From a virus, in the IMG/VR virus record IMGVR_UViG_3300035070_003528, positions 1-64,000 of that record: a DNA stretch of 64,000 bases; one strand, 5' to 3'. The notes under the pieces are model-generated. The model was not told where the DNA came from. It did no database searches and worked only from the letters and a program-made list of their open reading frames with translations. Both the position numbers and the translations under genes were made by a program. Positions 26,790-43,757 of the stretch are shown here, one piece after another. The stretch's first letter is position 1. Every line of letters starts with the position of its first letter.

Positions 26790-27430
26790 AGATAGATTGC
26801 TTGTGTATTACAACCAGCCGAAGGAAGACGTTTAAGAATTGGGTTCTATGGAATTACCTAAAACAAAACTACGCAAATAAACGCCTTGTTGTAATAAGCG
26901 ATGATGATGATTGGCCTGAGTGGGTTGATTTCATGTATGCACACATTGATGAGCCAATTCCGGTTAAACGCAACATGGCAATGAGTGTCGCGTCTGGTGA
27001 TGTGATTACATGGTTTGACGACGACGATTGGCAGCACGTTAATAAATTAAAAATAATAGCAGAAAACATAGAGCTACTAACAATGGTGGGATGCAGTCAC
27101 TCGTTCTTTTACGAGCCAATTACACAAAAAGCGACTTATGTTGACACCGGAACTGTGCCGATATTCAACAGCCTTGGCTTGATGAGGTACGGTCTACCAG
27201 CGTTTGCTGAACATATGATACAATACAGTGACACGGATTGGATTAATAAATTACTTGCGTATCGTAGTGTTGTAATAAGCGAAACAATGATGTTCTTTTG
27301 GATTACGCATCAACACAACATTAGTAATCCAATTAATAAAATAAAACCGAATGAGAAGATGAACTACTATCTTGATGGAGAATCATGGCAACAATTGAAG
27401 AAGCTCGCTCTGCGCTTGCAAACCGCTTAG
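26786..27430 (+). CDS. GT-A glycosyltransferase inside the tail operon
   Basis: About 214 residues from ATG 26786 (ATGA overlap; the GTG at 26777 is less likely). Short family-2 fold with LVVISDDDDWPEW, an R-N-M-A-M segment typical of the sugar-nucleotide site and a DxD metal motif in WFDDDDWQ (about 75-82). It lies between two fibre-type genes, so it may glycosylate a tail fibre. It overlaps the next gene by 46 bases. Confidence 0.8.
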   Translation: MKIDCLCITTSRRKTFKNWVLWNYLKQNYANKRLVVISDDDDWPEWVDFMYAHIDEPIPVKRNMAMSVASGDVITWFDDDDWQHVNKLKIIAENIELLTMVGCSHSFFYEPITQKATYVDTGTVPIFNSLGLMRYGLPAFAEHMIQYSDTDWINKLLAYRSVVISETMMFFWITHQHNISNPINKIKPNEKMNYYLDGESWQQLKKLALRLQTA

Positions 27431-30390
27431 GGCAATATAAAAAACAAACACCAGTTCGTGTAGCATTTTTAGGTGATGGCCGTGGGAACGCAGCTAGTAA
27501 TATGGTTCCGCCTGGAGAGCCCGACAAATACTGGGCTAGAGAAAGCATCGATGGCGACAAGCCGTTCAAGGTGATTAATCGCAGTCCAAATTTTACCCCA
27601 GCATTTAATTTACCCGTTCTACTTGGCTATCCAGAGGACGATCCAGACCAAGAACAGGTTATGGGTATTCACCGTGGATTGGTTCAATTTAGTATTGGCA
27701 ATGCTGGTTCGGCAATAAGTGGCACTGCCCCGCACCACACGAAGCATGAATGGGGCGGCGGTGACGAGGTGTATGTAGACCCTCGCATGTTCAAGCCTGG
27801 GTTAATCAAGCCGACTTCACCAGCCTCAATGTATGTCAAGGTACTGGCTTTTCAACACTATTATAATACATGGCAACGGTATGATGGTGGCACATCACCG
27901 AATCTAGCCCAATACGTTCCCGCATCAGATTATCGTTATGTGCTGCTTACGCTTGACCCAGACACTAATCAATTGTGCGTTCGCCCCGGTAGTGTCTTTA
28001 CGCCCGATCTGAGCATTGATAGCATTATTAGCAATCAGGCGACAAATACATTTCGGCACATACCTACCCCACCTGGAAATGAAATTCCACTTGGGGTCGC
28101 ATTGCTTGAGCCTGGTACGACAAAAATAGATTGGAACACCAATGGCGTAAATAACTTGCTTCCAATGCGAGTTCTGTTGAGTTCGCCAACGAGAGAAATA
28201 AACGAACGCCTCAGCTTGCTTGAATCGGCGACTGGAGTCAGTAGCTTACCATCAACAGGCGCAGCTAACTCTATTCAATCCGATTTATTACCAGCGCGTA
28301 TAGATGGCAACATTACGCGAATTGTACTTAACCGCAATAGTACATCAGCCGCATTGCCGACTCTTTTTGTCGGAGAGCTTGGTTTTGTAAATAATTCTCC
28401 AGTTCAACTCGTTCTTGGCACAGCAAGCGGCAATGCTGTATTTAGCTCTGGTGGTGGGGCATCAGTGCTAGATGACTTGGCAGACGTGCGCATCGAAGAC
28501 CTGCTTGGGAACCGGGCGTTTATGTTCGACAGCGGGGCAAACATTTGGACATCAACAAGCGTACTTACTGTTCCCGTTTTGTCTGGGATAGGCTATATAT
28601 TCAACGAGACACAGACGGGAATATATACAAAAAACGTACCGCTTATAGTTTACGATGGTGGATTTAATGAAATACTAACCGTAGGGTACGCTGGGGAGTC
28701 AGGCCAACTGGAATATAACCCAAGTCAGGCGGATAATAGATTTATCTTTTGGAATAGCAGCGGTATATCGGCCGAATTCGATTCTAATACAAATACGGCT
28801 CGTCTAGCGACAATCAATTCGCCGTCTGCAATCGATATACAATACGATAGCGACAAGGTGTTGTTAAATTCTCAATCAGGCACAATGGCTGAATTAGATG
28901 CTACAAACGATTTGTTTAGATTTGCCACGGAAAGTTCGCCAAGTGCATTAGCAATAAACTACGCAAATAATAACATTGCATTCGCGGTTGATAACGTTCG
29001 TTTTGAAACAACGAATGCCAGTTGTGCGTTGGGTATAAACTACGCAGAAGACTCTATTATTGTGGCAAGCGGCGTTAATTTATACAAATTTGGGACAAGT
29101 AATGTAGATGGCGACAGCTTTGTGTTTTTCGCTGGTGGTCATGGGTTTCATGTTGGTGGTTCTCCAACTCCATCAAGTATAGTCGAGAGATTAACTTTAC
29201 ATGAGGTTGATTTGCGTGGTTTGGTTATGTCATCCCGCTCTAGACAAAGTGGCGGGGGGGAATTATTTAGATTCGTAAAATACGGGCGCAACCCAAGTCT
29301 CCCAGTCGATACGTCCTATATGATAGAAACGGTGAATCAGATAGATCCAACAACAAGTAGCGAAGATGCCGAATGGACTATTCAAACACGTGTTGCTGGC
29401 ACAATGGGAAGCCGGTTGCGTATAGGCGTGTCCGAAACCGAGATAAATGGAGCAAGAGCAGACCACGATACCAAAATAGCAACAAGCGCAAATGCTAGTA
29501 TGTTTGTTGTGGACAGTGGACTGGGCGCAGTTCAAATTGGAACGTCTGCTGCTGGACAGATTGCTGATTTCAGAGACCATTTGATTGAATTTAATAAGAA
29601 TCAAAATGATATTGATACGGTTATTAGAACGTCTGGTAATGCCAGTATGTTTGTTGTGGATGCGGGAAATAATAGGATTGGGATTGGCACGGCAACGCCT
29701 GGTTTTGACTTAGAATTAAGAAAAGACACTAACGGACTAACTGCGTTTCAAATCACAAACAATACAGTCGGGACTGATTCGCTGGCGCAGTACAGGCTGG
29801 CGACCGGAAGCAGCGCCTATGCTATCGGCCTAGCTAGTTCTGCAATCTCTGGTGCGTTAGGAGATTATGCGGGGTACGGGTTTTTTGATGCGAATTCATT
29901 TATGACAGGATTGGCAATCGCAGCAACAGCAACAAACGGAGTAGTTGATATTAGAACGGGGGGAAGAAACCTTTCCAATAGAAAGGTAATTGTCGGCAAT
30001 GGAATTCAAGTTGGCACTCCAACGGGTGGTGACAAGGGCGTTGGGACAATCAACGTATCAGGAAATGTGTATAAGAACAACTCGCTGTACAACAATCCAG
30101 ATTACGCTTTTTTCAATTATTTTCACGGGCATAATGGGCCATTTTCAAACAACCCAGGAGCAAGAGAATATGCTGGGCTTTTGCCAATTGATCAATTAAA
30201 AGAGTATGTAAGCAAAACCTATCATTTGCCAGGGAGAAACGACAATGAGCCTATGGGGATTTTCGACATGGCTGACATCGCACAGCAATGGATAGAAGAA
30301 CTGTCTTTGTATATAATAGAATTAAATGATCGAGTAAGACATATGGAATCTTTATTATTAGATAAGGGTATAGTTATAAACAAAAGGTAA
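27385..30390 (+). CDS. Tail fibre protein with C-terminal trimerisation region
   Basis: 1,001 residues. Residues about 1-290 are globular and end in a LSLLESATG helix. The middle has many short beta-helix repeats such as SPSAIDIQYDS, SPSALAINYAN and SCALGINYAE, and a duplicated SANASMFVVD / SGNASMFVVD pair. NRIGIGTATPG is a typical fibre signature. The C-terminus (PDYAFFNYF, KTYHLPG, IEELSLYIIELNDRV) matches the chaperone-like ending of many tail fibres. GGAG precedes the ATG. Confidence 0.8.
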   Translation: MATIEEARSALANRLGQYKKQTPVRVAFLGDGRGNAASNMVPPGEPDKYWARESIDGDKPFKVINRSPNFTPAFNLPVLLGYPEDDPDQEQVMGIHRGLVQFSIGNAGSAISGTAPHHTKHEWGGGDEVYVDPRMFKPGLIKPTSPASMYVKVLAFQHYYNTWQRYDGGTSPNLAQYVPASDYRYVLLTLDPDTNQLCVRPGSVFTPDLSIDSIISNQATNTFRHIPTPPGNEIPLGVALLEPGTTKIDWNTNGVNNLLPMRVLLSSPTREINERLSLLESATGVSSLPSTGAANSIQSDLLPARIDGNITRIVLNRNSTSAALPTLFVGELGFVNNSPVQLVLGTASGNAVFSSGGGASVLDDLADVRIEDLLGNRAFMFDSGANIWTSTSVLTVPVLSGIGYIFNETQTGIYTKNVPLIVYDGGFNEILTVGYAGESGQLEYNPSQADNRFIFWNSSGISAEFDSNTNTARLATINSPSAIDIQYDSDKVLLNSQSGTMAELDATNDLFRFATESSPSALAINYANNNIAFAVDNVRFETTNASCALGINYAEDSIIVASGVNLYKFGTSNVDGDSFVFFAGGHGFHVGGSPTPSSIVERLTLHEVDLRGLVMSSRSRQSGGGELFRFVKYGRNPSLPVDTSYMIETVNQIDPTTSSEDAEWTIQTRVAGTMGSRLRIGVSETEINGARADHDTKIATSANASMFVVDSGLGAVQIGTSAAGQIADFRDHLIEFNKNQNDIDTVIRTSGNASMFVVDAGNNRIGIGTATPGFDLELRKDTNGLTAFQITNNTVGTDSLAQYRLATGSSAYAIGLASSAISGALGDYAGYGFFDANSFMTGLAIAATATNGVVDIRTGGRNLSNRKVIVGNGIQVGTPTGGDKGVGTINVSGNVYKNNSLYNNPDYAFFNYFHGHNGPFSNNPGAREYAGLLPIDQLKEYVSKTYHLPGRNDNEPMGIFDMADIAQQWIEELSLYIIELNDRVRHMESLLLDKGIVINKR

Positions 30391-30397
30391 ACAACCA

Positions 30398-31018
30398 ATG
30401 AGTAATACAAGTTTGACAAATTACAGTCTACAATCGATACTTCCAAAAGATGTGTCTGGATACAAGTTCATGGCATGGGTGAGATCGGATGCGTCCGTTG
30501 CACCGTTTACGCTGCCACGAGGAATCGGTACGTCAGTCAATGATAGTGGTTATATGTTTAGCAGCTTAGGAGTTGGGGTACATTCTGGTCTATCACCCGT
30601 AAGAAGTCTAGACCCGCTAATGACATTGGGTGGTGTTTACATAGAGAACATCAATGCCGCAACACCGGCCTCTCCTGTAGCATCTGGGCAAGCTAAATTT
30701 ATCACCGCCACTGAATTGGGTGAAATTCATGCGATTCCAGCAGCGAAGACAGCCAGCCAGGTGAGTACATCAGCAAATGCGCTAAAAACAACCAGTGGTA
30801 TTCTTTACGCAATCCACTTAGCGGCAAGCAATGTAAATGTTGGCAGTGTATTCCAGGCTAGGGATTTTGATCGGGATATGTTTACAATAATCGCGCCACA
30901 AAGCAGTTTTACACACGAGGTAATAATTCCTAGTGGTGGCATCGCATTTGGAACATCGTTGCTACATGCGCAAACAATCAGTGGTGGTGCGGCTAGCATG
31001 ACATTTGTGTTTCGTTAA
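30398..31018 (+). CDS. Small structural protein at the end of the tail operon
   Basis: 206 residues, Ser/Ala/Gly-rich, predicted beta. It has the composition of virion proteins and ends the tail operon. Its TAA overlaps the stop of the convergent glycan operon at TTAA (31,015-31,018). No family recognised. Confidence 0.5.
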   Translation: MSNTSLTNYSLQSILPKDVSGYKFMAWVRSDASVAPFTLPRGIGTSVNDSGYMFSSLGVGVHSGLSPVRSLDPLMTLGGVYIENINAATPASPVASGQAKFITATELGEIHAIPAAKTASQVSTSANALKTTSGILYAIHLAASNVNVGSVFQARDFDRDMFTIIAPQSSFTHEVIIPSGGIAFGTSLLHAQTISGGAASMTFVFR

Positions 31019-31512
31019 GTTATTACAAGTTCTGGGAATAGTTCTTGTATCCAAGGTTGTGTTAGAATTATATTAATCGCCTCTCTAACACAACCTTCTC
31101 CACCTTTTTTAGCCAGCACAATAATACCGTCAATTGATTTTACTTCATCTTCGGCATCGGCAGGGCAGAAGGCTAGTGTAGCATTTTGTAGTAGTTCCAA
31201 ATCTGGTACGTCATCAGAAATGGCAATATACTTTGTGGGGTGTTCATGAATAAACTTCGCCTCGACCAACCATGCTATTTCTGCATATTTATTACCAACT
31301 CCCAATGAGCAAGTTATTTGCAGTTTATTTGCGCGATGTTTAATTGATTGATCGTTTTCTCCAGACATGATAAATGGGACAATATTAGTTCTTTCTTTTA
31401 GTAATTGGAATCCATGCCCATCCCTCACAGAGAACCATCTTTCTTTGTTGGGATAAGATACCGTTCCGTCCGTCATCACCCCGTCCGCGTCAACTATCAT
31501 TGGAATCGTCAT
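31015..31512 (-). CDS. KdsC-like HAD phosphatase
   Basis: About 165 residues from ATG 31512, after GGGAG. The nucleophile motif DADGVMTDG (Asp in DxD), FIMSGEN and a late DDVPDLELL metal motif define the C0-type HAD phosphatase family of KdsC and the phosphatase domains of sialic-acid pathways, which removes the phosphate from 8- or 9-phosphorylated ulosonic acids. Presence here suggests that at least one synthase in the operon makes a phosphorylated acid. Last gene of the operon. Confidence 0.8.
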   Translation of the reverse strand: MTIPMIVDADGVMTDGTVSYPNKERWFSVRDGHGFQLLKERTNIVPFIMSGENDQSIKHRANKLQITCSLGVGNKYAEIAWLVEAKFIHEHPTKYIAISDDVPDLELLQNATLAFCPADAEDEVKSIDGIIVLAKKGGEGCVREAINIILTQPWIQELFPELVIT

Positions 31513-31690
31513 CATCGTTCTCCCAAATCTGCTCAAATTCATCGAATCTGCACAGTTCTATTTTTTCTTCACCGTAATGAATACCCTTGAAATACGCAAA
31601 TAAACTGTGCGGAGATGATTCCCCGACCTTTTTCACTTCGGTTCCTTCATCAAAAAAAGTATGCGGCCGTGCGATATAAATTACTGTCAT
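31490..31690 (-). CDS. Unknown small acidic protein
   Basis: 66 residues, ending in a run of Asp (ENDDDDSND). It overlaps the phosphatase start. The N-terminus MTVIYIARPHTF is strand-like. No family recognised. Confidence 0.45.
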   Translation of the reverse strand: MTVIYIARPHTFFDEGTEVKKVGESSPHSLFAYFKGIHYGEEKIELCRFDEFEQIWENDDDDSNDS

Positions 31691-32506
31691 TTATCCTCTC
31701 AGTTTTTCACGTACTGGAATCTCACTCGGATAAACTCGCTTAACTCCATCACCAAAGATGACTGGAATCTTATTCCGTTCTCGCGCAATTAATTCCAATC
31801 CCTTTTGCTCTAACGATGCCGCCTGATCTGTTCCAGGTAACGACCGATCTAACGTAGCGTGTGCTTCAATACCCCATGCGCCCATTGCTATTCCATATAT
31901 ACTGGACATAGGACTCGATGAGTGATTCGAGTAACCGACTGGTAATGAATATCGTTGTCTTAGTGTATTAATTACATTAAGGTTAATTTCGTTATCAGCA
32001 ACAGGATAGCTGCTCGTGCAGTGCATTAGAATAAGATTATATCCATTTGGAAACAACTTTACAGCATGATCGATTTCTTCAATGGTTGACATGCCAGTTG
32101 ATAAGATAATTGGAATACCCGTATCAATCGATGCGTTCAGCAGCGCATCATTTACTAGCAATGCACTAGGGATTTTAATGAACGGGGGATGGTATTTCGC
32201 TAATTTCTCTAGACTAGGAATATCCCACACAGAAGCGAATGCTTGTCCAGCGTATTGCTTCATCCATAGATTTAGCTGGTCGTCATTGATTTCAATTCGC
32301 TCTTTATATTCGATGTATGTCATTGGCGTACCGTCGAACCATTCTCGTGGTTTATTCCATTGATCTTTTGGCACACATAGTCGCGGGGTGCGAAGCTGTA
32401 TTTTAACGTAGTCAAAATTTGCATCTAATGACATATTAGATAGTTTGATTAAATTCTTAAAACTGCCGTTGTGATTCAAACCCAATTCAGAAATCAACTT
32501 AGTCAT
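31691..32506 (-). CDS. Nonulosonate synthase (NeuB family), copy 1
   Basis: 271 residues: TIM barrel only, without the C-terminal antifreeze-like domain of classical NeuB. Signatures: ISELGLNHNGS (PEP-binding start), FIKIPSALLV, ILSTGMSTIEEI, LMHCTSSYP, GYSNHS and EAHATLDRSLPGTDQAASLE. It condenses PEP with an N-acetylmannosamine-like sugar. The DRSLPGTDQ motif is the normal NeuB/LegI/KDN type. With the adjacent phosphatase, a 9-phosphate product is possible. Confidence 0.85.
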   Translation of the reverse strand: MTKLISELGLNHNGSFKNLIKLSNMSLDANFDYVKIQLRTPRLCVPKDQWNKPREWFDGTPMTYIEYKERIEINDDQLNLWMKQYAGQAFASVWDIPSLEKLAKYHPPFIKIPSALLVNDALLNASIDTGIPIILSTGMSTIEEIDHAVKLFPNGYNLILMHCTSSYPVADNEINLNVINTLRQRYSLPVGYSNHSSSPMSSIYGIAMGAWGIEAHATLDRSLPGTDQAASLEQKGLELIARERNKIPVIFGDGVKRVYPSEIPVREKLRG

Positions 32507-33186
32507 TTTATCACCTTTGCTCTAAATTCAACACGGCCGTCATCCATATCCAAATAAGCCGCCTCGTACCCCTCGTAAGAACATGCTTTGATTAACTCAA
32601 GTACCAACATCGCAGAATATGCAGTTCGCTCATCGTCTTTAAACATTTCGTTCAGCGTTGTACCAAGATCGTGCGCCCCACGAAATTCTTTCAACGTATG
32701 AACAACGTCAATGTTTTGCTCAATATCAATGGGTGTAAAATCGCCCTCTGAGATGAGTTCTGCAACATTGTGTAGGAAAGTAGGCAATTCGTCGAAAAGT
32801 CTCTGTTGTAGTGTTTCCGCGGTGTCAGATAGGCGCACAGGAACAGGATGTTGGAGATAAATATCACCACGATCTATTTTGGCCGTCATGCGGTGAGCCG
32901 TCCAGCCACTTCCTTCGCCAGTTAGAACAGCCCAGAAGTTAGGGAAACTACCACGATGGTGCGGTAATAAACTTGGGTGAATATTTATTGTGCCAAGTCT
33001 TGGAATATCAAATTCGTTGTTTTTAATAATACGATTGTAGAGCAGGGAGACAACCAAATCATATGAAGGATTTACAAGACTATGATCCTCTAGATATTGA
33101 ATATCATGTCCCATTTCTCTTAATTCCTGCAAAAACGCTGCTCGTATAGCCGAGTATTTCTTTTGAGTTAATATTCCTATTTTCAT
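32503..33186 (-). CDS. Sugar N-formyltransferase
   Basis: About 227 residues from ATG 33186 (ATGA coupling). The formyltransferase core NIHPSLLPHHRG includes the catalytic Asn68 and His70, and GWTAHRMTAKIDRGD supplies the Asp. It uses N10-formyl-tetrahydrofolate to formylate an amino group. No acetyltransferase of the PseH type is in the operon, so this enzyme probably formylates the C4 amine of the PseC product. Methionyl-tRNA formyltransferase is excluded by length and context. Confidence 0.8.
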   Translation of the reverse strand: MKIGILTQKKYSAIRAAFLQELREMGHDIQYLEDHSLVNPSYDLVVSLLYNRIIKNNEFDIPRLGTINIHPSLLPHHRGSFPNFWAVLTGEGSGWTAHRMTAKIDRGDIYLQHPVPVRLSDTAETLQQRLFDELPTFLHNVAELISEGDFTPIDIEQNIDVVHTLKEFRGAHDLGTTLNEMFKDDERTAYSAMLVLELIKACSYEGYEAAYLDMDDGRVEFRAKVIK

Positions 33187-33428
33187 TCTACCCACAATTT
33201 TCCCTGTTTCATGATAACAACACCACTCCCACCAGATGTAATCGTTGCAATAGATCCATCATCATAATATGTTTGAGTATCAGACATCCATTCTTTGCAG
33301 TTTGGGCAAATATCTATAGCAATTTCTCTTTTGTAAATTTCGTACCACACTTTTTTGCTTTCTCGTTCATTAAACATAAATGTATGGCAACATTTTCTAC
33401 AGGTTATTTTATAATTGAAGTCGATCAT
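33183..33428 (-). CDS. Small zinc-ribbon protein
   Basis: 81 residues: CRKCC near the N-terminus and CPNC near the middle form a four-Cys zinc ribbon; then a Gly-rich strand region. It lies between the formyltransferase and synthase 2 genes with overlaps on both sides. Function unknown. Confidence 0.5.
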   Translation of the reverse strand: MIDFNYKITCRKCCHTFMFNERESKKVWYEIYKREIAIDICPNCKEWMSDTQTYYDDGSIATITSGGSGVVIMKQGKLWVE

Positions 33429-34282
33429 CGCACTACCGGCCGTAGCCAGTCCTCGTCGCTTCGTCGATAATTATCTCTACAGAATTGTTCGCCCGTTGTG
33501 AATCCATCCTGATACCCGCCACGAGCTAGACGAAAACGCTCTGCCCATGTAACCATTTCTCTAAATTGAGATGGGGATAAACTATGTTCGGCCTCGTTGC
33601 CAAGTTTATCGAAAAGGTCGAAATGAGCCTCGATGGTTGTTGCGCCTAATAAAACTGAACTTGCGTTCAAAACCGGGTCTACGAAATGGCTACTCAGTCC
33701 ATAATCAATGAACCCAGTTCCATCCATATCGTACGTAAACTCGCTCACAATTTCCAGCATCCGTCGCATATTAAACTCTTTTAATTGAATTGGATAGCCT
33801 GGATGACAGTGCAAAATGGTGATGTCGTCAGGGAAATCGTCACCAGGACGTAGCAATGTGATCGCTGTTTCGATTTCTTCAATTGTCGCCGCCCCAGTTG
33901 ACAGAATAACCGGTTTCCCGTTTTGCGCCAGTTTGTTTAGTAACGGAATATAGGTAATGTCCCAACTAGCCACTTTCCACTCGTTAACAAATTCATCGAG
34001 AACATCAACGGCATCAACATCGAATGGCGTACACAGAAATTCGATATGATTGGTACGGCATTCAGCAGCGAGTTGTGGTAGCCATTCTCGCGGTAGAGCA
34101 ACGGCATTCAGCGACTTTTGTACATTTGGATTACTGTGTAATGTATCGCCTGTAAATAGTTGGAATTTAGCATGTGTTGCTCCAGCCGCAGCAGCTTCTT
34201 CGATCAAAGCCAGTGCTCGGTTAAGTGAACGGCCGTCCTTTTTTGTAACATAATTAGAGCCGATTTCAGCGATAAATTTCAT
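33425..34282 (-). CDS. Nonulosonate synthase (NeuB/PseI family), copy 2
   Basis: 285 residues, divergent from copy 1 and likewise lacking the antifreeze-like domain. Motifs IAEIGSNYV, AKFQLF, KVASWDIT, PLLNKLAQNGKPVILSTGAATIEEI, LHCHPGYP and EAHFDLFDK fit the PseI group. It would join PEP to the PseG product to give a pseudaminic-acid-type nonulosonate. Confidence 0.8.
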   Translation of the reverse strand: MKFIAEIGSNYVTKKDGRSLNRALALIEEAAAAGATHAKFQLFTGDTLHSNPNVQKSLNAVALPREWLPQLAAECRTNHIEFLCTPFDVDAVDVLDEFVNEWKVASWDITYIPLLNKLAQNGKPVILSTGAATIEEIETAITLLRPGDDFPDDITILHCHPGYPIQLKEFNMRRMLEIVSEFTYDMDGTGFIDYGLSSHFVDPVLNASSVLLGATTIEAHFDLFDKLGNEAEHSLSPSQFREMVTWAERFRLARGGYQDGFTTGEQFCRDNYRRSDEDWLRPVVR

Positions 34283-35078
34283 TGTATACCTTTTGTATCA
34301 TCTCAAGCATGTGAGAAGTATTTTGTTTCTGCATATTACTCGCCTGTCTGGCTACCATAGATAGCGTGAAGGTATCTGTCAATACATCTGGGTTAATACC
34401 TTGTGGCATAGCAAGTTTTTGGTAAATAAAATAACTGTAGTTAACCATTTGATTTGGTGCTGTTAGTATCAAGACGGTTGGTGCGCCCTGGTAAACCATT
34501 TCTTTTGCAGTCACACCAGCGGCTGTAATTACACACCGGGCGTTACGAGAATCTTGCATAAGTAAATTATGAGGAACGTCATTTGTCACCACAAAGTCAA
34601 TTCCGTGTTCTTCGCAGTAGTCCATGTAAGGCTGTGCGTTCTTCCAGTAATCAATGTAATTACTGCCGGGGATAAACATCACTGTTTCGCCGCCAATCCA
34701 ACTGTTTTCCTGCACGTCTTTACTAACGGCGTAGAACATTGCATTGCCGTATGATGTGGCTTCCCAACTAAAATCCTCTGCACCACCAGATACATAAACA
34801 ACTAAGTCAACGCCAGTTCCTTCATACTGAACACCAAATTCATCAGAAAGTAGTACGCTAAATACATCTGCGTCAAGTAGGTGTTCGTATTGCTGATTAC
34901 CTGGGTCAATGATAATAATATCGCCATGAATATAATTTGGCTTAGTATCACCCAATGACATTATTGTATATTCGTTATCAATATATTGGGAAATAGCATT
35001 AATGCGAGAACGATTACCATTGACAGGAATTAATTCTCCGTTCAATTCAACGTGCGTGGCATAAGCAAGATATATCAT
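34266..35078 (-). CDS. pseG: PseG-like UDP-sugar hydrolase
   Basis: 270 residues, GT-B-like. The C-terminal half has CVITAAGVTAKEMVYQGAPTVLI and TAPNQ, equivalent to the SAGGST..EL...G.P and NQ motifs of PseG, which removes UDP from the 2,4-diacylamido altrose. The N-terminal domain lacks the usual G-x-G-H-x-x-R loop, so it is a diverged member; a NeuC-type role is not excluded. Position between PseF and PseI supports PseG. Confidence 0.65.
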   Translation of the reverse strand: MIYLAYATHVELNGELIPVNGNRSRINAISQYIDNEYTIMSLGDTKPNYIHGDIIIIDPGNQQYEHLLDADVFSVLLSDEFGVQYEGTGVDLVVYVSGGAEDFSWEATSYGNAMFYAVSKDVQENSWIGGETVMFIPGSNYIDYWKNAQPYMDYCEEHGIDFVVTNDVPHNLLMQDSRNARCVITAAGVTAKEMVYQGAPTVLILTAPNQMVNYSYFIYQKLAMPQGINPDVLTDTFTLSMVARQASNMQKQNTSHMLEMIQKVYNEIYR

Positions 35079-35785
35079 AAGTAATTCAGCAACTCCGCAG
35101 CGTGAATAAAATCATCAGGCGTGTCAATATCAACTGATTTCCGTTTGTCCATTTGGAAAAACTGGTAAGGAGGATAGCGGTAAGTGCGATACAAGCTAAA
35201 TTGATTAGCATTAGTAATGTAAATTGCGCCATTTTCGATAACCGGCCATTCTTCTAGCCATTGTTTACCCAATCTGAAACGGGGATCGTGGTTCAATGGC
35301 TTTGCTTCGCTCATCCCATTTATTGACCACACGAACGAATCCACTTGGTATCCAGAGAACAAACATCCTGTTCTGTCGCTTGCGTACCATTGGTTAATTG
35401 CGTTATCAATATCTTCCGCTGTGCGCAAGGGACTTGTAGGCGCGAGAAGAACAAGGTAGTCTGGTGCAACAAGTTCGCTTTTGTGCTGCAAGGTTCGCAA
35501 CATATCAAGAAAGACCTCATCAGTTTGCGTAAAGTCCTGCGAGAGTTTTGGGTCTCTATTTAATACATCGAAACGCATTCCCGACTTATCGATTTGGAAC
35601 GCAATATCATTTGCCATCACAGCAAGTTCTTCGTCCTCTGTGCTAAAGTAGACTTTATCAACGCTACTTTCTAACGCCGCTTTGATAGTCCAATAAATCA
35701 GCGGGTGTCCCTTGATTAGTTTTGCGTTTTTGCGCGGAACTCTCTTGCTATTTCCTCGTGCTGGAATGAATGCGTAAATTGTCAT
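35075..35785 (-). CDS. pseF: CMP-nonulosonate synthetase (PseF/NeuA family)
   Basis: 236 residues, full length. The CTP-binding motif ARGNSKRVPRKN (9-20), LLAPTSPLR, ENGAIYIT and the metal-site DIDTPDD are all present. It transfers CMP to the nonulosonate 2-hydroxyl, the activation step before glycosyltransfer. It is the only cytidylyltransferase in the window and would have to serve both synthases. Confidence 0.88.
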   Translation of the reverse strand: MTIYAFIPARGNSKRVPRKNAKLIKGHPLIYWTIKAALESSVDKVYFSTEDEELAVMANDIAFQIDKSGMRFDVLNRDPKLSQDFTQTDEVFLDMLRTLQHKSELVAPDYLVLLAPTSPLRTAEDIDNAINQWYASDRTGCLFSGYQVDSFVWSINGMSEAKPLNHDPRFRLGKQWLEEWPVIENGAIYITNANQFSLYRTYRYPPYQFFQMDKRKSVDIDTPDDFIHAAELLNYL

Positions 35786-36666
35786 ACCGCCTCCTTTTGT
35801 TTATATTTGCACCAATCTAGGTAGTCTTGTTTCGTACATGATACATGATAGCCACCCATGAATCTAACGTGAAAATCATAATGGCATTCATGACAAAGCA
35901 CAATCCCGTTATCCTTTTTATACCTCATTTCTAGATAATCGCTATAATTGAACAGGTGGTGCGCAACTGTTTTGTGCCCAGAGCCACAAACCGCACAATT
36001 GTATCCGTATTTTTTTCGTACCCCTCTTCGCCAGATTAAGTACCTTTCGTCGTCTTCTCTCTTTGCCTCTCTTTCTTCATCTGTTAAATTAGGATTGTAT
36101 CTTGGATTCGTTTCTCCAGTTAACCTTTCAATAAGATCCTCCGTTCTTTTGCATCCACAGCTTTCTTGCCCAGTTCTTAACGCGTTGCCGGAGACAATTA
36201 TTTCTTTTCCGCAATCACACACGCATCGTCTGTATTGATACTTTCCTCCCAAGTACTCTTTAACAACGAGCCTGCCATATCGCTCTCCCGTCATGTCTAT
36301 GTATCGGGAATGGGTTTCTCCAATCTTTAAGCACCCGCAACTTTTTGTTTTAAAAATCAATTGGTTTGTAGAGACTTTTGTTACCTCGCCACAATCGCAT
36401 ACACAAAGCCACTTTTTATCATCAACCAAATACTTCAAAACATAAAGCTTGTCAAATCTCATTCCCCTTAAATCCCTTACCATACTACACGACTTGCAGT
36501 ACGTGGAGCGGATTTTTTCTAGATTTAAATATGAAACAATTCTGGTTTTTAAACACAGAGGGCATGAGACATAAACATTTTTACCTGATTTTCTGTTTTC
36601 CATTGAATCCGGATCCAGAAATATGAAAACTGGATCTGATTTCGTCATCGTCAATATATCATTCAT
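35782..36666 (-). CDS. HNH homing endonuclease inserted in the glycan operon
   Basis: About 294 residues from ATG 36666. Repeated zinc modules (CPLC..CKSC; CDCG..SCGC; CDCG..SCGC) precede a C-terminal HNH domain (CAVCGS, VAHHLF, CHECHYDFH). The architecture matches the enzymes at 4,527 and 51,524. It is placed exactly between the PseC and PseF genes, overlapping both by a few bases, so neither gene is broken and operon translation continues. It contains no CGGCCG site. Confidence 0.85.
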   Translation of the reverse strand: MNDILTMTKSDPVFIFLDPDSMENRKSGKNVYVSCPLCLKTRIVSYLNLEKIRSTYCKSCSMVRDLRGMRFDKLYVLKYLVDDKKWLCVCDCGEVTKVSTNQLIFKTKSCGCLKIGETHSRYIDMTGERYGRLVVKEYLGGKYQYRRCVCDCGKEIIVSGNALRTGQESCGCKRTEDLIERLTGETNPRYNPNLTDEEREAKREDDERYLIWRRGVRKKYGYNCAVCGSGHKTVAHHLFNYSDYLEMRYKKDNGIVLCHECHYDFHVRFMGGYHVSCTKQDYLDWCKYKQKEAV

Positions 36667-37705
36667 AAGCACACACTCCGCTATTTATTGTATCAACGAT
36701 GTACTGGCATTCATCATCACTTAACGAATTATGGATAGGTATGCTAAGGCTGTGATTATAGTGGTGTTCTGCGATTGGACAATTTGCGTATAAGTGACTA
36801 TACAATGGTTGCATGTGTACTGGCTTGTAGTGAATTTGTGTTCTTATCTGATTTTGCAACAGATAGTCTTTGACAAAATCTCTTTGCTCTTTTGTTTTGA
36901 ATGTAATTGGAAACAAGTGCAAAGAATGGTTTTTATGATAAGGCGGGAGTTTCACCAAATGATCTAATTCTGCCCGATAGAATTGAGCAATTGTGTGCCG
37001 TCTGTTATGATCTGTATCCCACCTATCAAGTTGAGATAGTAATAGAGCCGCCTGGATGTCTGTCATTCTGTAATTCGCCCCAACAAAAGAAGCATCCCCA
37101 TCACTATTTCTTCCATGATTGCGGTACTCACGAGCAAATTCTACAAACTCCTTATTGTTAGTCAGGATAGTGCCTCCTTCTCCAGAATTCCCCAAGGTCT
37201 TTACGGCATGGTGCGAGGTTATTCTACATTGATAGTCACCAAACTCATTCATGTGCTCATGAAAAAAATGAGCGTCGTCAGCTATTAATCCACTACCAAC
37301 AACCGGATAACCACACAAGGAGACGGATAGATCGTATGTCTGGGTTGTCAATAATTTGTCATCTGCATCGGCAAGCTTGATTGGGATTCCTAGTCTGGTA
37401 ACAGAATTCGCGGTAGCCACAAATGTTAATGTGGGTACTGATACCCATTTTGGCTTTTCCATCTGATTAAAAAACCACTCAGCGGCAATGTACAAACCGG
37501 CAGTAGCATTAGATACAGCAACAGCAAAGCGATAGCCAGTAAATTCAGCTATCGCTTTTTCATATTTTTCTATTGTTGGGCCAGATGTAAGCCAATTACT
37601 TCTCAGGACTTTTTCGACTGCGCTTACGTCTTGATCCGTTATCGTCGGCTGTGCGTAATGAATCGGTAATGTCGGTGTCGTCAATTTCTTCCTCGTGTTC
37701 AACAA
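36659..37705 (-). CDS. pseC: PseC-like aminotransferase (DegT/DnrJ/EryC1/StrS family)
   Basis: 348 residues, full length. Conserved stretch NWLTSGPTIEKYE at the start, DDAHFFHEH, and the PLP lysine in HHAVKTLGNSGEGG (Lys169), very close to the H-x-V-K-x-x-x-x-x-E-G-G motif of PseC. It aminates C4 of the 4-keto sugar made by PseB using glutamate. The N-terminal 36 codons overlap another frame (37,596-37,829). Confidence 0.85.
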   Translation of the reverse strand: MLNTRKKLTTPTLPIHYAQPTITDQDVSAVEKVLRSNWLTSGPTIEKYEKAIAEFTGYRFAVAVSNATAGLYIAAEWFFNQMEKPKWVSVPTLTFVATANSVTRLGIPIKLADADDKLLTTQTYDLSVSLCGYPVVGSGLIADDAHFFHEHMNEFGDYQCRITSHHAVKTLGNSGEGGTILTNNKEFVEFAREYRNHGRNSDGDASFVGANYRMTDIQAALLLSQLDRWDTDHNRRHTIAQFYRAELDHLVKLPPYHKNHSLHLFPITFKTKEQRDFVKDYLLQNQIRTQIHYKPVHMQPLYSHLYANCPIAEHHYNHSLSIPIHNSLSDDECQYIVDTINSGVCAYE

Positions 37706-37829
37706 TGGTATAAACTATTCCTTTTTCGTCGTATTCGCACCTCCGGGTGTGAAGTATGGCTTGTTCGTAACTCCACCCTAATCCAATGCCATCTTCGTGA
37801 CTATCTAATTTTACTGTGTAAGTTGTCAT
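37596..37829 (-). CDS. Small unknown protein overlapping pseC
   Basis: 77 residues, starting MTTYTVKLDSHEDG with an AAGGA ribosome binding site. The last 36 codons share DNA with the start of pseC in another frame, ending in a basic tail (SRRKRSRKSPEK). The N-terminal half looks like a real protein, so I keep it, but the C-terminal part may be an extension caused by loss of an earlier stop. Confidence 0.45.
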   Translation of the reverse strand: MTTYTVKLDSHEDGIGLGWSYEQAILHTRRCEYDEKGIVYTIVEHEEEIDDTDITDSLRTADDNGSRRKRSRKSPEK

Positions 37830-37843
37830 AATTCTATAGTTCC

Positions 37844-38113
37844 TTAGTCCTGAGTTTTGTATGCTTGTATATCAGAAACGTCTAACACGTGCAAGGTTTG
37901 CCCGTCTACTTCTAAAGAAAGAGCATCAGAGGCGTTGTAATAAATCACAGTGCCTATTGTAATAGCTATATCTCCCAAATCGACGACTTCCCCACTAATG
38001 AGATACCCATGCTTCGTTGAGTTAACCATTACAATACCAGAGTCTAATTCTTTTTCAAATGATTTGTCGGGCTTAATTAAAACCCGATCTCCATAAGCGA
38101 AAATTGTTGCCAT
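37844..38113 (-). CDS. groES: GroES-like co-chaperonin
   Basis: 89 residues, near the usual length of 95. GDRVLIKPD at the N-terminus, a mobile loop with SGIVMVNSTKHG, then GEVVDLGD and IYYNASDALSLEVDG, following the GroES beta-barrel order. The mobile loop retains the hydrophobic IVMV triplet that binds GroEL. Like T4 gp31 it may adapt host GroEL to fold a phage protein. TAATG coupling with the PseB gene. Confidence 0.8.
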   Translation of the reverse strand: MATIFAYGDRVLIKPDKSFEKELDSGIVMVNSTKHGYLISGEVVDLGDIAITIGTVIYYNASDALSLEVDGQTLHVLDVSDIQAYKTQD

Positions 38114-39045
38114 TAAATATCTCTCCTAATCATTTCTACTAATTCTATTTGTGTAAATCTCTCGGCTTGTTGTGACGATAACATGCCGTCATACCCGTAT
38201 GGTAATTCGCCGAATCTACCTTGAGCGAGATGCAGGTACTTCCCATGTAAATCAGTAACGGCCGACATACTCAATTCTTCATCGCAAGTCATTTGTTCGT
38301 GTAATTTCTCACCGGGGCGAATACCGATTATTTTAACCGTCGCTTTTTTATTATACGCAATTTGATACGCATCTGCCAATTCCGCAATAGTACACGATTT
38401 CAAGTTGGGGATTATTTTACATCCACTGTAATCAGTTGCCATCAGCACATAATCAACTGCATCGGTAATTTGGTAAAAATAACGAGTCATAGTCGGTTCA
38501 GTTATTTCCAAAACAGAAATATCTTTCTTCATCTCACTATGCCATTTTTCAATCAGACTTCCTGTGCTTTTCCACACGTTGCCAAATCTAAGCACAGTTC
38601 CGCCTGAGTTTAGTACCATTTGTTCTGCGACTGCCTTACTTTGTCCGTATACATTAACGGGAGCAGCAGCCTTATCCGTACTGATGAAAACAAAATTACG
38701 GGTATCGTACTCAGAGAATACATCTAGTACATTTTGAGTGCCATCGATATTTACACCAATTACTTCACGGGTATTCACCTGCGCCATGCTAATATGCTTG
38801 TATGCAGCAGCGTGAATAACATCGGGCCAATTTGCTTTGCCAATTACATCTTTTACAGATTCTTTATTACGAATATCACCGTTGATCATCGTAACGTCAC
38901 TGCCCCATTTGCGAGACAGCGTTTCTTGGTCTGCCCATCGTCGGCTAATACCGTAGATGTGATTATAAATGCCCCGGCGCAACACCTCGTCAACAACGTG
39001 ACGGCCGAGGAACCCAGTGATACCTGTGATTACTAAATCAGTCAT
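38113..39045 (-). CDS. pseB: PseB-like UDP-GlcNAc 4,6-dehydratase
   Basis: 310 residues, extended short-chain dehydrogenase. NAD motif GITGFLG (8-14), STDKAA (122-127), and the catalytic pair Tyr133/Lys137 in VYGQSK. RPGEKLHEQM is the usual C-terminal motif of PseB/FlaA1 enzymes. It starts the pathway from UDP-GlcNAc to the 4-keto-6-deoxy sugar and its C5 epimer. Confidence 0.85.
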   Translation of the reverse strand: MTDLVITGITGFLGRHVVDEVLRRGIYNHIYGISRRWADQETLSRKWGSDVTMINGDIRNKESVKDVIGKANWPDVIHAAAYKHISMAQVNTREVIGVNIDGTQNVLDVFSEYDTRNFVFISTDKAAAPVNVYGQSKAVAEQMVLNSGGTVLRFGNVWKSTGSLIEKWHSEMKKDISVLEITEPTMTRYFYQITDAVDYVLMATDYSGCKIIPNLKSCTIAELADAYQIAYNKKATVKIIGIRPGEKLHEQMTCDEELSMSAVTDLHGKYLHLAQGRFGELPYGYDGMLSSQQAERFTQIELVEMIRRDI

Positions 39046-39415
39046 CGCTCGATACGGCCTCTAGGTGTGTGTTCATAATTAATGCATTAAGTTCAGGGAC
39101 ATACGCAACTGGGTAATCTATCTCATCTAACTCTTCAAGGTTTACCGTAAGGTAACTTAGAATATCTGAGAATACGTCCTCTAGCCATTTCATGGTTGCT
39201 TCATCAATGTTATAATTTTCGTCGCGATACCGATAAGTAATATTTCCCCATCCAATCCATCCATCAAGAATGGACTCGCGGTCGGTTCTGTAGGGAAATG
39301 TTATGGTGTTTTTTAACGCTGAAATAAATCTAAAATCGTTGCTACTAATATCAAATATCTCAGCGGCACGATTAATATTTAATCCGATATTAATTGTATC
39401 GTGCGGGCTAATCAT
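39038..39415 (-). CDS. Unknown protein in glycan operon
   Basis: 125 residues, acidic, helical at the C-terminus (LEELDEIDYPVAYVPELN). Overlaps neighbours at both ends. No family recognised. Confidence 0.45.
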   Translation of the reverse strand: MISPHDTINIGLNINRAAEIFDISSNDFRFISALKNTITFPYRTDRESILDGWIGWGNITYRYRDENYNIDEATMKWLEDVFSDILSYLTVNLEELDEIDYPVAYVPELNALIMNTHLEAVSSDD

Positions 39416-40521
39416 TTACCACCAATTACCTCTGCGATATGTTGTGCATTTGATAAATTGTCATACACATCATAATACCGTTCTTTTTCGCATAGCGCGA
39501 TAGTTCTATAGTCATCTAAATTCGCCGCGATTTTATCCAACGCGGCCAACCATCCTGCTTCATTTGATTTATCACACGTTGTCAAAATGCCCTGGTCAAC
39601 AAATATACCAGATTTGCAATCAAAGAAATCTCGATATACTTCTGATTTTGTCGCAACGAATGGAATGCCCATTGCAATATATTCCATCACCTTGAGCCTA
39701 CTTCGTCGTTGATCGTATGGCATAGCCAATGGGGCGAGTCCAATATCAAAGCTACTTAATATACGAGGCCAATCGAAGAACATTACATAGTGACGAAACC
39801 ATAGCTGATCATCTGGTAATCCAAGTTGTTTAATCAATCTATTGTCGCCAACCAGCCCAAATTGCCAATCATCGTGCTTAGATAAAAACTTGTGTAACGC
39901 ACGTTCAACGCCACTGCGTGAGAAGCTAGTGAGATGGCTAAGACTTCCTCCCCACCCAACAGTCAACTTGCTACCTTTAACATGGGGAATATCGTATCGG
40001 TGCGATTCGATGTAATTTGGCAAGTATTTCATTGGCGCAAACTTATTCCAGTCTGAACACAGCACACGACTTGGGGTAATGCCACCTGTAACATATTTCA
40101 ATCCGTCACGAAACTGGTCAACAGGATGCTTATCTAATGTACGAACGTATTTATGCCCACCTGTGTTGACCTCTACTTCACCTTTGCCCCAGAACTTAAA
40201 GGCAGCGTTCTCTTCACCGATGTACTGATAGGCATCATCAAACGATACATAAACTTTTTTGCCTCGGCTCATCCAGTATGTAGCAACTTTGATGCTTTCA
40301 TCGAGCAGTACACGTTGGATGATAATAATGTCAGTTTCGTTACACGCCAGTTTGCATCGTGCGTTATTGGTCATCCAGTCTTGAACATAAATCCAAGAAA
40401 TGTCATACCCAATTGATCTCAGTGCGTTTGCGGGAACAGAAAACGTGTAATTCGACGAATTATATTCAGCGAAATTGTCTGCAAATACTAGGGCTAATTT
40501 AAATTTATTCTTGCTGGTCAT
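39412..40521 (-). CDS. GT-B glycosyltransferase
   Basis: 369 residues. C-terminal half contains LTVGWGGSLSHL, a WQFGLVGD strand, then FDIGLAPL and RSRLKVMEYIAMGIPFVATKSEVYRD, the E-x7-E-like site of GT4/GT-B retaining enzymes (here LKVMEY...G.P.V). The N-terminal half binds the acceptor. Donor and acceptor are unknown. Confidence 0.75.
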   Translation of the reverse strand: MTSKNKFKLALVFADNFAEYNSSNYTFSVPANALRSIGYDISWIYVQDWMTNNARCKLACNETDIIIIQRVLLDESIKVATYWMSRGKKVYVSFDDAYQYIGEENAAFKFWGKGEVEVNTGGHKYVRTLDKHPVDQFRDGLKYVTGGITPSRVLCSDWNKFAPMKYLPNYIESHRYDIPHVKGSKLTVGWGGSLSHLTSFSRSGVERALHKFLSKHDDWQFGLVGDNRLIKQLGLPDDQLWFRHYVMFFDWPRILSSFDIGLAPLAMPYDQRRSRLKVMEYIAMGIPFVATKSEVYRDFFDCKSGIFVDQGILTTCDKSNEAGWLAALDKIAANLDDYRTIALCEKERYYDVYDNLSNAQHIAEVIGGK

Positions 40522-41668
40522 TTTTTAATTCGTTATACCGCCGGTCTACCCAATTATTATCATGTTTCATTTCTAGTGCTTTCCTAAATGCAAACAGTGC
40601 TTCATTGCGGTCGCCAATAGCCAGATAGCACTCGCCGACAAATCCATAGGTTGCCCAGTTATTCGGCTCTTTTTGCAATGCCCAATTAATGCAATGATGA
40701 ACAAATGCATTATTATTCGATTCTATTGCCTTGTGTGCTGAAACGATAAAAGCTGGGTATTCCGCATCATTGACGTATTTAATTGCCTGTAATTCATTTA
40801 CCAGCGATTGTTTAACGCCGGTAAATGAGCAAGCCAGCATCAAAGTGACAAGTTGTTCGTCTATGTTCGCCTGTGGTACGAATTGAAGTTTTTTCAGTGT
40901 TGCGGCAAGTTCTTCTATTACAATGTTATCGCTGCCTCGTAAATCATTGGGATTAAGCAAACTCATAGCCGTTTCTGGATAACGAGTTGCCAAGAACACA
41001 CGACTGCGACCTTCTTTATACTGTCGCTGCATGAACGATTCCAATGTGTGTTTATGATAATGGAGATTGATTGCCGTTGGATCAAATGAAGTTGCATACC
41101 CCTGCTTGCGTAGTTCGTGACCAAACGCAACATCTTCCCAGGCGGCTGTGGGGAACTCTTCTGGAAATCCACCGAAATTAAGGAAATCATCGCGATTCAT
41201 CGAGAAGTTCGTTGTTAGCAAAAACCCAGTAGCGTCTGTTTTCCAGCCGGTGTTAGTTCGTAGATTAGACCAATTCGCTTGCATCCCCATACGATCTAGC
41301 CACTGCATGAAACGAGTATCTAGCACGTCTGGATGAAATGGGCTGTATCCTTGTAATGCCGTATGTTTATTGTAATAATGGTGGATTTGATGACGTAGAA
41401 TTAAATCTCGTTGCGGGAAGCAATCGTCCCCAACAAAAAGAACAGTATCCCCAACTGCCTCACGTGCGCCTACGTTACGCGCAACTGCTGGGCCACGATT
41501 AGTTTCATTATTGATTACACGCACAAATGGAGAGTTGTATTCAATATATTCTCCGCCATCGTTTACAACAATAACCTCAAATTCTTTCGCTGTTTGATGG
41601 TCGTATTTATCTAAATGAGCGTACAAAATATGCTTGTTGTTGTATGTTGGGATAATTACACTAATCAT
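40505..41668 (-). CDS. Family-2 glycosyltransferase with C-terminal TPR
   Basis: About 387 residues from ATG 41668. GT-A domain at 1-220: SVIIPTYNN start, VVNDGG, the DDC metal site, a WEDVAFGHEL acceptor motif. The last about 110 residues form helical repeats, ending in a clear tetratricopeptide unit (YGFVGECYLAIGDRNEALFAF). TPR-bearing transferases often act on proteins, which suits a virion-glycosylation role; inferred. Confidence 0.8.
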   Translation of the reverse strand: MISVIIPTYNNKHILYAHLDKYDHQTAKEFEVIVVNDGGEYIEYNSPFVRVINNETNRGPAVARNVGAREAVGDTVLFVGDDCFPQRDLILRHQIHHYYNKHTALQGYSPFHPDVLDTRFMQWLDRMGMQANWSNLRTNTGWKTDATGFLLTTNFSMNRDDFLNFGGFPEEFPTAAWEDVAFGHELRKQGYATSFDPTAINLHYHKHTLESFMQRQYKEGRSRVFLATRYPETAMSLLNPNDLRGSDNIVIEELAATLKKLQFVPQANIDEQLVTLMLACSFTGVKQSLVNELQAIKYVNDAEYPAFIVSAHKAIESNNNAFVHHCINWALQKEPNNWATYGFVGECYLAIGDRNEALFAFRKALEMKHDNNWVDRRYNELKNDQQE

Positions 41669-41673
41669 AATGC

Positions 41674-42222
41674 TTACTTGCCCCCTTTCATTGCCGTTTT
41701 CACACAAAACGGAGCACATACACCATTGCTGAAATGACTCGCTGCTTCTAATGCCAGCAAAATACGAGACTGCGGCTCATTTGATGCGCTGGAAAATAAA
41801 CTTCCTAGAGCAAAGTTAGCCCCGCACCCCACCGCCGCATAATCATCCATATGTATATTAACCTGATAATCAACCTCTATGTTATAAATCTCTCCACGGT
41901 ATCCAACAATAAACTGTCCTCCAGATTCTTGCCCGTCCCGTATGGTCGAGAATCCCCCAGACGATAGACATTCTCTGACACAATCAACAAAAGCTGTTGC
42001 CATATATTCTGTGTCATCCATTCCATCTGGCTGATTTGGGGCGTTTAGTTTATACTGTAATAGCTGTCCCATTCTGAATGATGTGGTATACCCGATAATA
42101 AACTCTCCTTTAACAAACACCTTCTCTAATTTGGACGAAAATATTTCCCATCCATTAGCGGCAGCAGAGTCAGCACCAACATAAACTGTTCCGTTCTCTT
42201 TTATTGCAACAATGCACGTCAT
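41674..42222 (-). CDS. Proteasome/HslV-like Ntn hydrolase
   Basis: 182 residues, starting MTCIVAIK. After Met removal the N-terminal residue is Thr. With that Thr as number 1, Asp17 (in VGADS) and Lys33 (in SKLEK) fall at exactly the catalytic positions of proteasome beta subunits and HslV. A central GGQFIVGYRG strand pair and AVGCGANFALG match the later beta-sandwich of the fold (FALGSL with Gly-rich turn). No unfoldase ATPase is encoded in the window. It may be a self-assembling peptidase; target unknown. Confidence 0.8.
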   Translation of the reverse strand: MTCIVAIKENGTVYVGADSAAANGWEIFSSKLEKVFVKGEFIIGYTTSFRMGQLLQYKLNAPNQPDGMDDTEYMATAFVDCVRECLSSGGFSTIRDGQESGGQFIVGYRGEIYNIEVDYQVNIHMDDYAAVGCGANFALGSLFSSASNEPQSRILLALEAASHFSNGVCAPFCVKTAMKGGK

Positions 42223-43358
42223 AATGTTCTCTTTATTTCCTTAACCACAACGGTCGTTGCCTTGCCAAGATTCTCTCCGAATTCATCACGAATAAACTTA
42301 GCCACTTGTTTTGTGTCAAATTCCGCAATGTGCTCTTGAATATTCGCCAACATATTAGGGAAAGTTTGCTGTGTTGCACTCAATGCCGCAACTGGAGCTA
42401 GTGGTTGTAGAATATCGTATCCGTTTTGCTGGTATTCAATTACAACTGCACCTAACGCAACTGCTTCTAACATAATCGTGCTATGCTGACCAACTACAAT
42501 TGTGTTGCCATTACGGCATAGAATCAGATTCTCCGGCGCGTTGTATGTCGTTAGTTTCTGGGGTAAATCACCGTATGTTCCTGCTTCTAGCTCAAACGGA
42601 TGTGGGCGAAACACGAAATCGAAACCAAGTTTTGTGGCAAAGTTGTGAAGGAAACTTGCATCTTGTGCTATGTTTCCAATGTATTCCTCTTGAAGTGTCG
42701 GGACAAAAAGCACGGTTTGCCGCCCACCGGATAGAGCATGTGCTTCTTCTCTACTCATGTTAACATATTTATCTAAATGGACAGGCCCAGATACAACCAG
42801 TTGGCTATTTTTCAACCCGGCAGCGATGTATTGCTTTTTAGTTGTGCTACTCCAAACAAACAGCTTGTCAACAAATTCACTTGCTGACTGTTGTTTATTC
42901 ATGGTAATCTGATCTCTGTCGCGCAATACACCCTCTTGAAAAGCGAATACTGGTACACCTGTTTCTTGTGCAAGGTAAGCAAGCGGTTTAGCAAAGAAGT
43001 TGTTACTGTGGAGAATCAAAACGGCCGTTGCGCTTGAAATTACATTGCGATAGGTTACGATTAATTCAGCCGCCTCTCTAACTGAGTATACTTGCCACCA
43101 AGGAGCAACCCCAGGCAACAATGGCATGTCTCTAAGCGTTCTCTCGACAATGCTGTCAACCAATTTGTCGTCACCGGGTTTAAATGATGTATACGAATGA
43201 ATGTACGGTTGACCAGACGCATTCATGTACAACAGCGGCGGGTCGATGTTGATGGCATTATTGGTTATCAACCAGCGCACATCTCGATCTGCCAATGCGT
43301 CAAATACCGGCTGTAATTTTTTCTTATGGTGTTCTCTACCACTGAATACTAAGATCAA
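42219..43358 (-). CDS. GT-B transferase (capsule/CDP-glycerol-type fold)
   Basis: 379 residues, TTG start with GGAGGA. Motifs LFVWSSTTKKQY, VVSGPVHLDKY, FVFRPHPFE and VVGQHSTIMLEAVALGAVV fit the superfamily of CDP-glycerol and capsule polysaccharide transferases. Likely transfers a sugar or nonulosonate made by this operon. Confidence 0.7.
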   Translation of the reverse strand: MILVFSGREHHKKKLQPVFDALADRDVRWLITNNAINIDPPLLYMNASGQPYIHSYTSFKPGDDKLVDSIVERTLRDMPLLPGVAPWWQVYSVREAAELIVTYRNVISSATAVLILHSNNFFAKPLAYLAQETGVPVFAFQEGVLRDRDQITMNKQQSASEFVDKLFVWSSTTKKQYIAAGLKNSQLVVSGPVHLDKYVNMSREEAHALSGGRQTVLFVPTLQEEYIGNIAQDASFLHNFATKLGFDFVFRPHPFELEAGTYGDLPQKLTTYNAPENLILCRNGNTIVVGQHSTIMLEAVALGAVVIEYQQNGYDILQPLAPVAALSATQQTFPNMLANIQEHIAEFDTKQVAKFIRDEFGENLGKATTVVVKEIKRTL

Positions 43359-43595: not shown

Positions 43596-43757
43596 TCATA
43601 ATATTTTTTCTATGAACAGCCAGCCAATATGCAATTGGTTCGATCTTTGCTTATTAAATGTTTGAGCATTTTTGAAGTGATAAAGTCTAAATTTATTTGA
43701 TAAGCGAAGAACAACTTTGCCTATCTTGAAAATCTTTTTCAGTCTAAGATTGCTCAT
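43596..43757 (-). CDS. Small basic protein, 53 residues
   Basis: Lys/Arg/Phe-rich N-terminus (LKKIFKIGKVVLRLSNKF), possibly amphipathic and membrane-binding. ATG overlaps the upstream stop as ATGA with AGGAG. Confidence 0.5.
   Translation of the reverse strand: MSNLRLKKIFKIGKVVLRLSNKFRLYHFKNAQTFNKQRSNQLHIGWLFIEKIL

Follow-up and report, generated by a model that had tools for sequence, protein, structure and literature searches.

Does a tailed phage carry its own pathway for an N-formylated nonulosonate (NulO) sugar? The question is raised by an operon in the window analysed here, bases 1-64000 of the 101,465-bp IMG/VR record IMGVR_UViG_3300035070_003528, which encodes capsid, portal and tail-tube proteins and a GH25 lysin. 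The operon runs from 39045 to 31015, with all genes on the minus strand and overlapping slightly. The reading that fits best, with a probability that we put at roughly 0.6, is that it represents a phage version of the formyl (PseJ) branch of nonulosonate synthesis to which a second synthase has been added. A near-identity DNA search of 50,697 phage records returned no near relative of the window.

Pathway enzymes of the operon

The original prediction placed PseB, PseC and PseF homologues in this operon, and for each of the three the top-scoring family is indeed the matching model of the pseudaminic acid (Pse) pathway. The PseB-like dehydratase (38113-39045), a predicted uridine diphosphate (UDP)-N-acetylglucosamine (UDP-GlcNAc) 4,6-dehydratase, scores 157 bits to TIGR03589, compared with 115 to the next family, FnlA. 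It retains the TDK...Y-x3-K active site, with Tyr rather than Met in the T-x9-M/Y-x3-K triad, presumably as in soluble inverting PseB, and its best sequence match in the PDB is 4tqg, followed by PseB/FlaA1 (2gn4). The PseC-like DegT aminotransferase (36659-37705) scores 232 bits to TIGR03588 and 134 to the next family, and has its pyridoxal phosphate lysine within SHHAVKTLGNSGEGG. By score, PseB and PseC belong with the Pse pathway and not with unrelated sugar pathways. The PseF-like cytidylyltransferase (35075-35785), which would activate a nonulosonate with cytidine monophosphate (CMP), scores 88 bits to TIGR03584 and 42 to the next model. Every pathway protein of the window scores below the curated equivalog cut-off of NCBIfam, so that each of these names is to be read as denoting a diverged family member.

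A formyltransferase probably in place of PseH

The gene at 32503-33195 (minus strand) encodes a Formyl_trans_N protein (PF00551, 1.7e-20) with a short N-terminal half, in which the Asn-His-Asp triad, earlier noted as intact, is present as Asn71, His73 and Asp108. In a tree that also holds Fmt, PurN and PurU, largely from PseJ-bearing genomes, and another group of phage formyltransferases (FTs), this protein falls within the PseJ clade (support 99/86). A profile built from ten phage FTs finds PseJ first (211 bits), followed by the LgrA formylation domain (~180 bits), the best other sugar FT reaching 116 bits, and five phage FTs share 43-47% identity with PseJ. The AlphaFold 2 model of the window FT (pLDDT 81) is matched in Foldseek by sugar N-formyltransferases including PseJ, which has the top target-normalised TM-score (0.76) among the matches listed, its E-value not being the best. 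According to its title, PDB entry 6ci4 holds PseJ crystallised with UDP-4-amino-4,6-dideoxy-L-AltNAc, the product of PseC, and by homology the window FT would act on this same sugar.

Models for PseH (TIGR03585), PF00583, PF13302 and hexapeptide acyltransferases find nothing in the whole 101-kb record, in agreement with the claim that the operon lacks an acetyltransferase; no PseH lies elsewhere in this record, which may be a fragment. With a PseJ-clade FT and no PseH in the record, the proposal that a formyltransferase stands in for PseH is supported, but not as a novelty, this being a known bacterial alternative. Among 80 bacterial PseJ loci, with neighbours counted within 8 kb, PseB, PseC, FT and NeuB occur together in 41, the FT usually occupying the place of PseH. 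PseG is found in 32 of these 41 and the order PseG-FT-NeuB in 27; any PseH-like gene is found in five. In addition, Pse5Ac7Fo is known from Pseudoalteromonas (PMC3210612), and PseH is missing from Geobacillus islands that contain PseC, PseF, PseG and PseI (PMC5109656). Given these loci, this sugar and these islands, formyl-for-acetyl replacement is an existing branch in bacteria, and the chemistry is not new; it is a known bacterial pathway variant, here phage-borne.

The UDP-removal step

A PseG had also been counted among the genes, and the product had been expected to arise wholly from phage genes; here the prediction goes too far. The protein at 34266-35078 (minus strand) is a distant PseG relative in which TIGR03590 matches 36 residues (E=5.5e-4). 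A hidden Markov model of 46 PseGs aligns to it only in the C-terminal half, at residues 179-241 (E=6e-5). The C-terminal AGxTxxE...NQ motif of the UDP site is kept. The N-terminal GxGHxxR motif, the His of which we presume from C. jejuni PseG to be catalytic, occurs in 44 of 44 complete PseGs, whereas the window protein reads NGNRSR and has lost the His. Because the gene begins within the end of pseF, there is no space for a longer N-terminus, and with an AlphaFold model of pLDDT 32 the PseG-like fold is unproven. A pattern search for relatives of this protein found none. UDP removal by the PseG-like protein is doubtful on this sequence, and since the catalytic motif is missing, a route by phage enzymes alone is not established.

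Two synthases and a putative second sugar

NeuB2 (33425-34282, minus strand; PF03102, 3e-50) is a PseI/SpsE-type nonulosonate synthase whose top PDB match is SpsE (1vli). It corresponds to the PseI-type synthase of the original prediction, which overlooked a second NeuB-family synthase, NeuB1 (31691-32506), of a subfamily common in phages, and the HAD phosphatase that closes the operon (31015-31542), both likewise on the minus strand. The synthases are 271 and 285 residues long, and their profile matches stop ahead of the C-terminal SAF (antifreeze-like) domain, which neither possesses. Both contain the equivalents of NmNeuB E25, K53, K129, H215 and H236, which we take to be catalytic and metal residues of the TIM barrel; at the position of Glu134, NeuB1 has Leu, a non-acidic residue. 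The phosphatase resembles KdsC and KDN-9-phosphate phosphatases (NF058599, 81 bits, below the equivalog cut-off of 180; TIGR01670, 68 bits), and its PDB matches are of KdsC type. Two synthases together with such a phosphatase point to a second nonulosonate, which the window phage likely makes.

Comparable arrangements are found elsewhere. In several phages, such as L038 and L057, NeuB1 is paired with a cytidylyltransferase of its own next to genes for PseB, PseC and NeuB2, and a 484-kb phage (LR756508; L005, 11055-15876) encodes three or more GT29 sialyltransferases (PF00777, 94-111 bits), members of a family best known from eukaryotes, around a NeuB1-type synthase. The cytidylyltransferase pairing and the adjacent GT29 genes suggest that the product of NeuB1 is a distinct nonulosonate. 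In the window, a single cytidylyltransferase would serve both synthases, or else the NeuB1 product would be used elsewhere.

Conservation of the module in a related phage

The 99,998-bp contig L086, here called G001, has capsid, portal and tail genes in common with the window phage, and its glycan module is nearly collinear with that of the window. It comprises a pair of BFO_1060-type glycosyltransferases (GTs) separated by a third module protein, along with a GT2, a proteasome-like protein, a GT4, PseB, PseC, PseF, FT, PseG, NeuB2 and NeuB1; the FT and the GT2/proteasome-like pair differ slightly in order. The G001 PseB orthologue scores 321 bits to TIGR03589, the two PseF orthologues match at 170 bits, and the G001 PseG is bona fide (TIGR03590, 3e-15). 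Searches of G001, likewise possibly an incomplete record, with TIGR03585 (PseH), PF13302 and hexapeptide models are blank. The HAD, GroES-like and zinc-ribbon-like genes of the window are not shared. Because the gene set is common to both phages at such divergence, the module appears to have been retained for a long time.

Nonulosonate clusters in other phages

Used as single sequences against viral contigs, NeuB2, the FT and the PseG-like protein had no hits; alignment queries were needed. NeuB1-type genes are common in IMG/VR (at least 547 confirmed matches), and this recurrence of synthases in phage contigs suggests that the nonulosonate trait is common and little studied. The contigs compared here were chosen through synthase searches, so the counts that follow are not frequencies. 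Where PseB-PseC-NeuB2 is present, the gene that comes next encodes a PseJ-type FT in L010, L069, L088 and L144. In L056, L063 and L092 it encodes an FT from a separate clade, and L063 and L092 have a PseJ-type FT farther along. A PseH-like GNAT takes this position in L081, L106, L107 and L115, and likewise, although without a PseC match, in L017, L042, L073, L074 and L098. No PseH-like gene is present in the record in eight of the ten contigs with FT, PseB, PseC and synthase. Strict mutual exclusion between FT and PseH was considered and rejected, as an FT coexists with a clear PseH-like gene in 5 of 27 phage contigs and with a weak one in another; the additional FTs mostly belong to a second clade. 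This second, non-PseJ clade of phage FTs occurs within nonulosonate clusters, often with PseH (L017, L042, L056, L063, L073, L074, L092, L098). PseG is recognisable in 2 of 27 other phage PseB/NeuB contigs, and the PseB-PseC-synthase-FT/PseH-type cluster of L069 is, like most, without it.

Proposed pathway and alternative readings

The case for a phage PseJ branch is built from sequence: the gene content, the family and clade assignments, the intact residues of the FT and synthases, the conserved linkage, and a record without PseH. The reactions, with their stereochemistry, the UDP step and the acceptor, are proposed by homology. PseB would dehydrate and epimerise UDP-GlcNAc, PseC would aminate C4, and the PseJ-like FT would formylate the C4 amine from N10-formyl-tetrahydrofolate, a step that PseH carries out with acetyl-CoA. 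Removal of UDP would fall either to the diverged PseG-like protein or to a PseG of the host. NeuB2 would condense the 6-deoxy sugar with phosphoenolpyruvate, and activation by PseF would give a donor resembling CMP-Pse5Ac7Fo. A second nonulosonate would come from NeuB1, probably acting together with the HAD phosphatase. The linked glycosyltransferases would build a glycan bearing these sugars; its most likely carrier is a protein of the virion (tail), with the host surface as the less likely site. For the CMP-activated, N-formylated pseudaminic-acid-like sugar originally predicted, the replacement of acetyl by formyl is supported by the PseJ-clade FT and by a module that recurs in G001 and in bacterial loci; the all-phage route is not.

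Several observations weigh against this reading. The window FT sits on a long branch (2.0) in a tree without VioF, ArnA and similar sugar FTs, and as a single sequence it reaches 65-82 bits with PseJ-type models and 77 bits with Fmt. NeuB2 scores NeuB and PseI models about equally and is without the SAF domain, the PseG-like protein is without GxGHxxR, all pathway proteins are under the curated cut-offs, and the record may not be complete. The lost GxGHxxR motif, in particular, could mean a broken or host-dependent pathway in which the PseG-like protein is inactive and the UDP-4-formamido sugar feeds a host pathway or serves as a UDP donor. The alignment of this protein at its C-terminal motif alone and the 25 of 27 other phage contigs without any PseG point in the same direction. 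However, NeuB2 and PseF are kept downstream with intact residues and are conserved with G001, the PseG of which is normal, and a broken pathway is in our view a less likely possibility.

The affinity of NeuB2 for SpsE bears instead on the isomer produced. In B. subtilis, legionaminic acid (Leg) is made from UDP-GlcNAc by SpsM, SpsC, SpsD, SpsG, SpsE and SpsF (PMC7439481), and the window product could conceivably be a formylated, non-pseudaminic isomer of legionaminic type reached through similar UDP-linked precursors. This is unlikely, since the dehydratase fits the PseB model best and has Tyr, not Met, in its triad, and since the PseJ substrate is an L-altro sugar. Alternatively, the FT might act on another amino sugar of the glycan, with the nonulosonate N-acylated by a host acetyltransferase, an arrangement that would suit both the divergence of the window FT and the co-occurrence of the non-PseJ FT clade with PseH in marine phage clusters. 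We consider it quite improbable, as the FTs of the window phage and of G001 cluster with PseJ and no other 4-amino-sugar pathway genes are seen in the operon. A phage-borne PseJ branch with an added synthase is the reading retained.

Glycosyltransferases and the likely acceptor

Upstream of pseB, also on the minus strand, is a series of module genes, among them glycosyltransferases that would assemble the glycan. A GT4-like glycosyltransferase (39412-40521; PF13692; 268 bits to its G001 orthologue) is followed by a GT2 with C-terminal TPR-like repeats (40505-41719; PF00535, 5e-19, plus weak TPR models), which is conserved in G001, where no TPR model matched. The Ntn-hydrolase/proteasome-like protein (41674-42222; PF00227, 20 bits, below cut-off) is part of the module in both phages. 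The candidate sugar transferase at 42219-43358 is a BFO_1060/surf_polysacc-type GT with FQEG and RPHP motifs (NF046086, 42 bits, and 70 bits for the G001 orthologue), and a search for its relatives found only G001. Beyond it are a module protein with no family assigned (43754-44680; 67 bits to G001) and a second BFO_1060/surf_polysacc-type GT, with a KPHP motif (44662-45849; NF046086, 106 bits).

HP motifs have been noted in NulO transferases (PMC6388019), and the GT2 with weak TPR matches recalls FlmG, in which modular organisation sets protein specificity (PMC7591256). At its other end, the operon converges on tail-fibre-like genes (27385-31018), as it does in G001, the fibre role being a guess from position. 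The HP-motif GTs, the GT2 with its weak TPR matches and the place beside tail genes in both phages favour, as an inference, glycosylation of a virion protein; alternatively, the module might alter the host surface to guard against superinfection.

Neighbouring genes

Non-pathway genes are scattered among the pathway genes, on the same strand. An HNH-type open reading frame (ORF) lies between pseF and pseC (35782-36672), in the place of which G001 has a 70-aa ORF. A GroES-like (Cpn10) gene, with no GroEL noticed nearby, is located between pseB and pseC (37844-38113), and an 81-aa Cys-rich, zinc-ribbon-like ORF that matched no family resides inside the operon (33183-33428). Elsewhere, a C5-cytosine methyltransferase-like gene (51022-52844) consists of two parts separated by an HNH-like ORF (51524-52171), near a GIY-YIG-like ORF (52891-53541). 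A group I intron at this site was considered and rejected, Rfam giving only tRNA and no intron match at the gathering score. A Radical SAM protein (PF04055) is encoded near the capsid genes (11468-12370).

Implications and comparison with known systems

It is possible, as a tentative extension, that many phages carry modular two-synthase nonulosonate factories in which swaps between acetyl (PseH) and formyl (PseJ) enzymes let related phages vary the N-acyl group of a sialic-acid-like coat on their virions, the window phage having two such sugars, one of them formylated. Virus-made sialic-acid-like sugars would give phages a direct way of decorating their tails or of altering host glycans, and exchanging formyl and acetyl groups would be a cheap source of chemical variation. 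The open-access literature, which was incompletely covered, yielded no account of a PseJ pathway in a phage.

The adjacency of NeuB1 and a KdsC/KDN-9-phosphate-phosphatase-like HAD protein resembles the KDN-9-phosphate pathway, which we take to be of the BT1713-BT1715 type; the window differs in having no dedicated second cytidylyltransferase and a putative NeuB1 substrate. The B. subtilis sps pathway is similar in its UDP-linked precursors and in SpsE, the nearest relative of NeuB2, but in the window an FT replaces the acyltransferase step of SpsD. With the Tannerella forsythia NulO transferases (PMC6388019), the window GTs share E-G and HP motifs and the NCBIfam BFO_1060 family, although they score below its cut-off and their donor is putative, as is the identity of BFO_1060 with that transferase. 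The canonical CMP-Pse5Ac7Ac pathway of C. jejuni and H. pylori (PseB-C-H-G-I-F) has the same PseB, PseC, PseI-type and PseF-type families, whereas the window has no PseH and a PseG without the His motif. The PseJ branch of pseudaminic acid synthesis, represented by Anoxybacillus kamchatkensis PseJ (PDB 6ci2, 6ci4 and 6edk), has an FT of the same clade together with PseB, PseC, a synthase and a cytidylyltransferase, and no PseH. Relative to that branch, the window version is phage-borne, its FT is only ~25% identical to bacterial PseJs, its PseG is diverged and its synthases truncated, and it carries an extra synthase and a HAD phosphatase.

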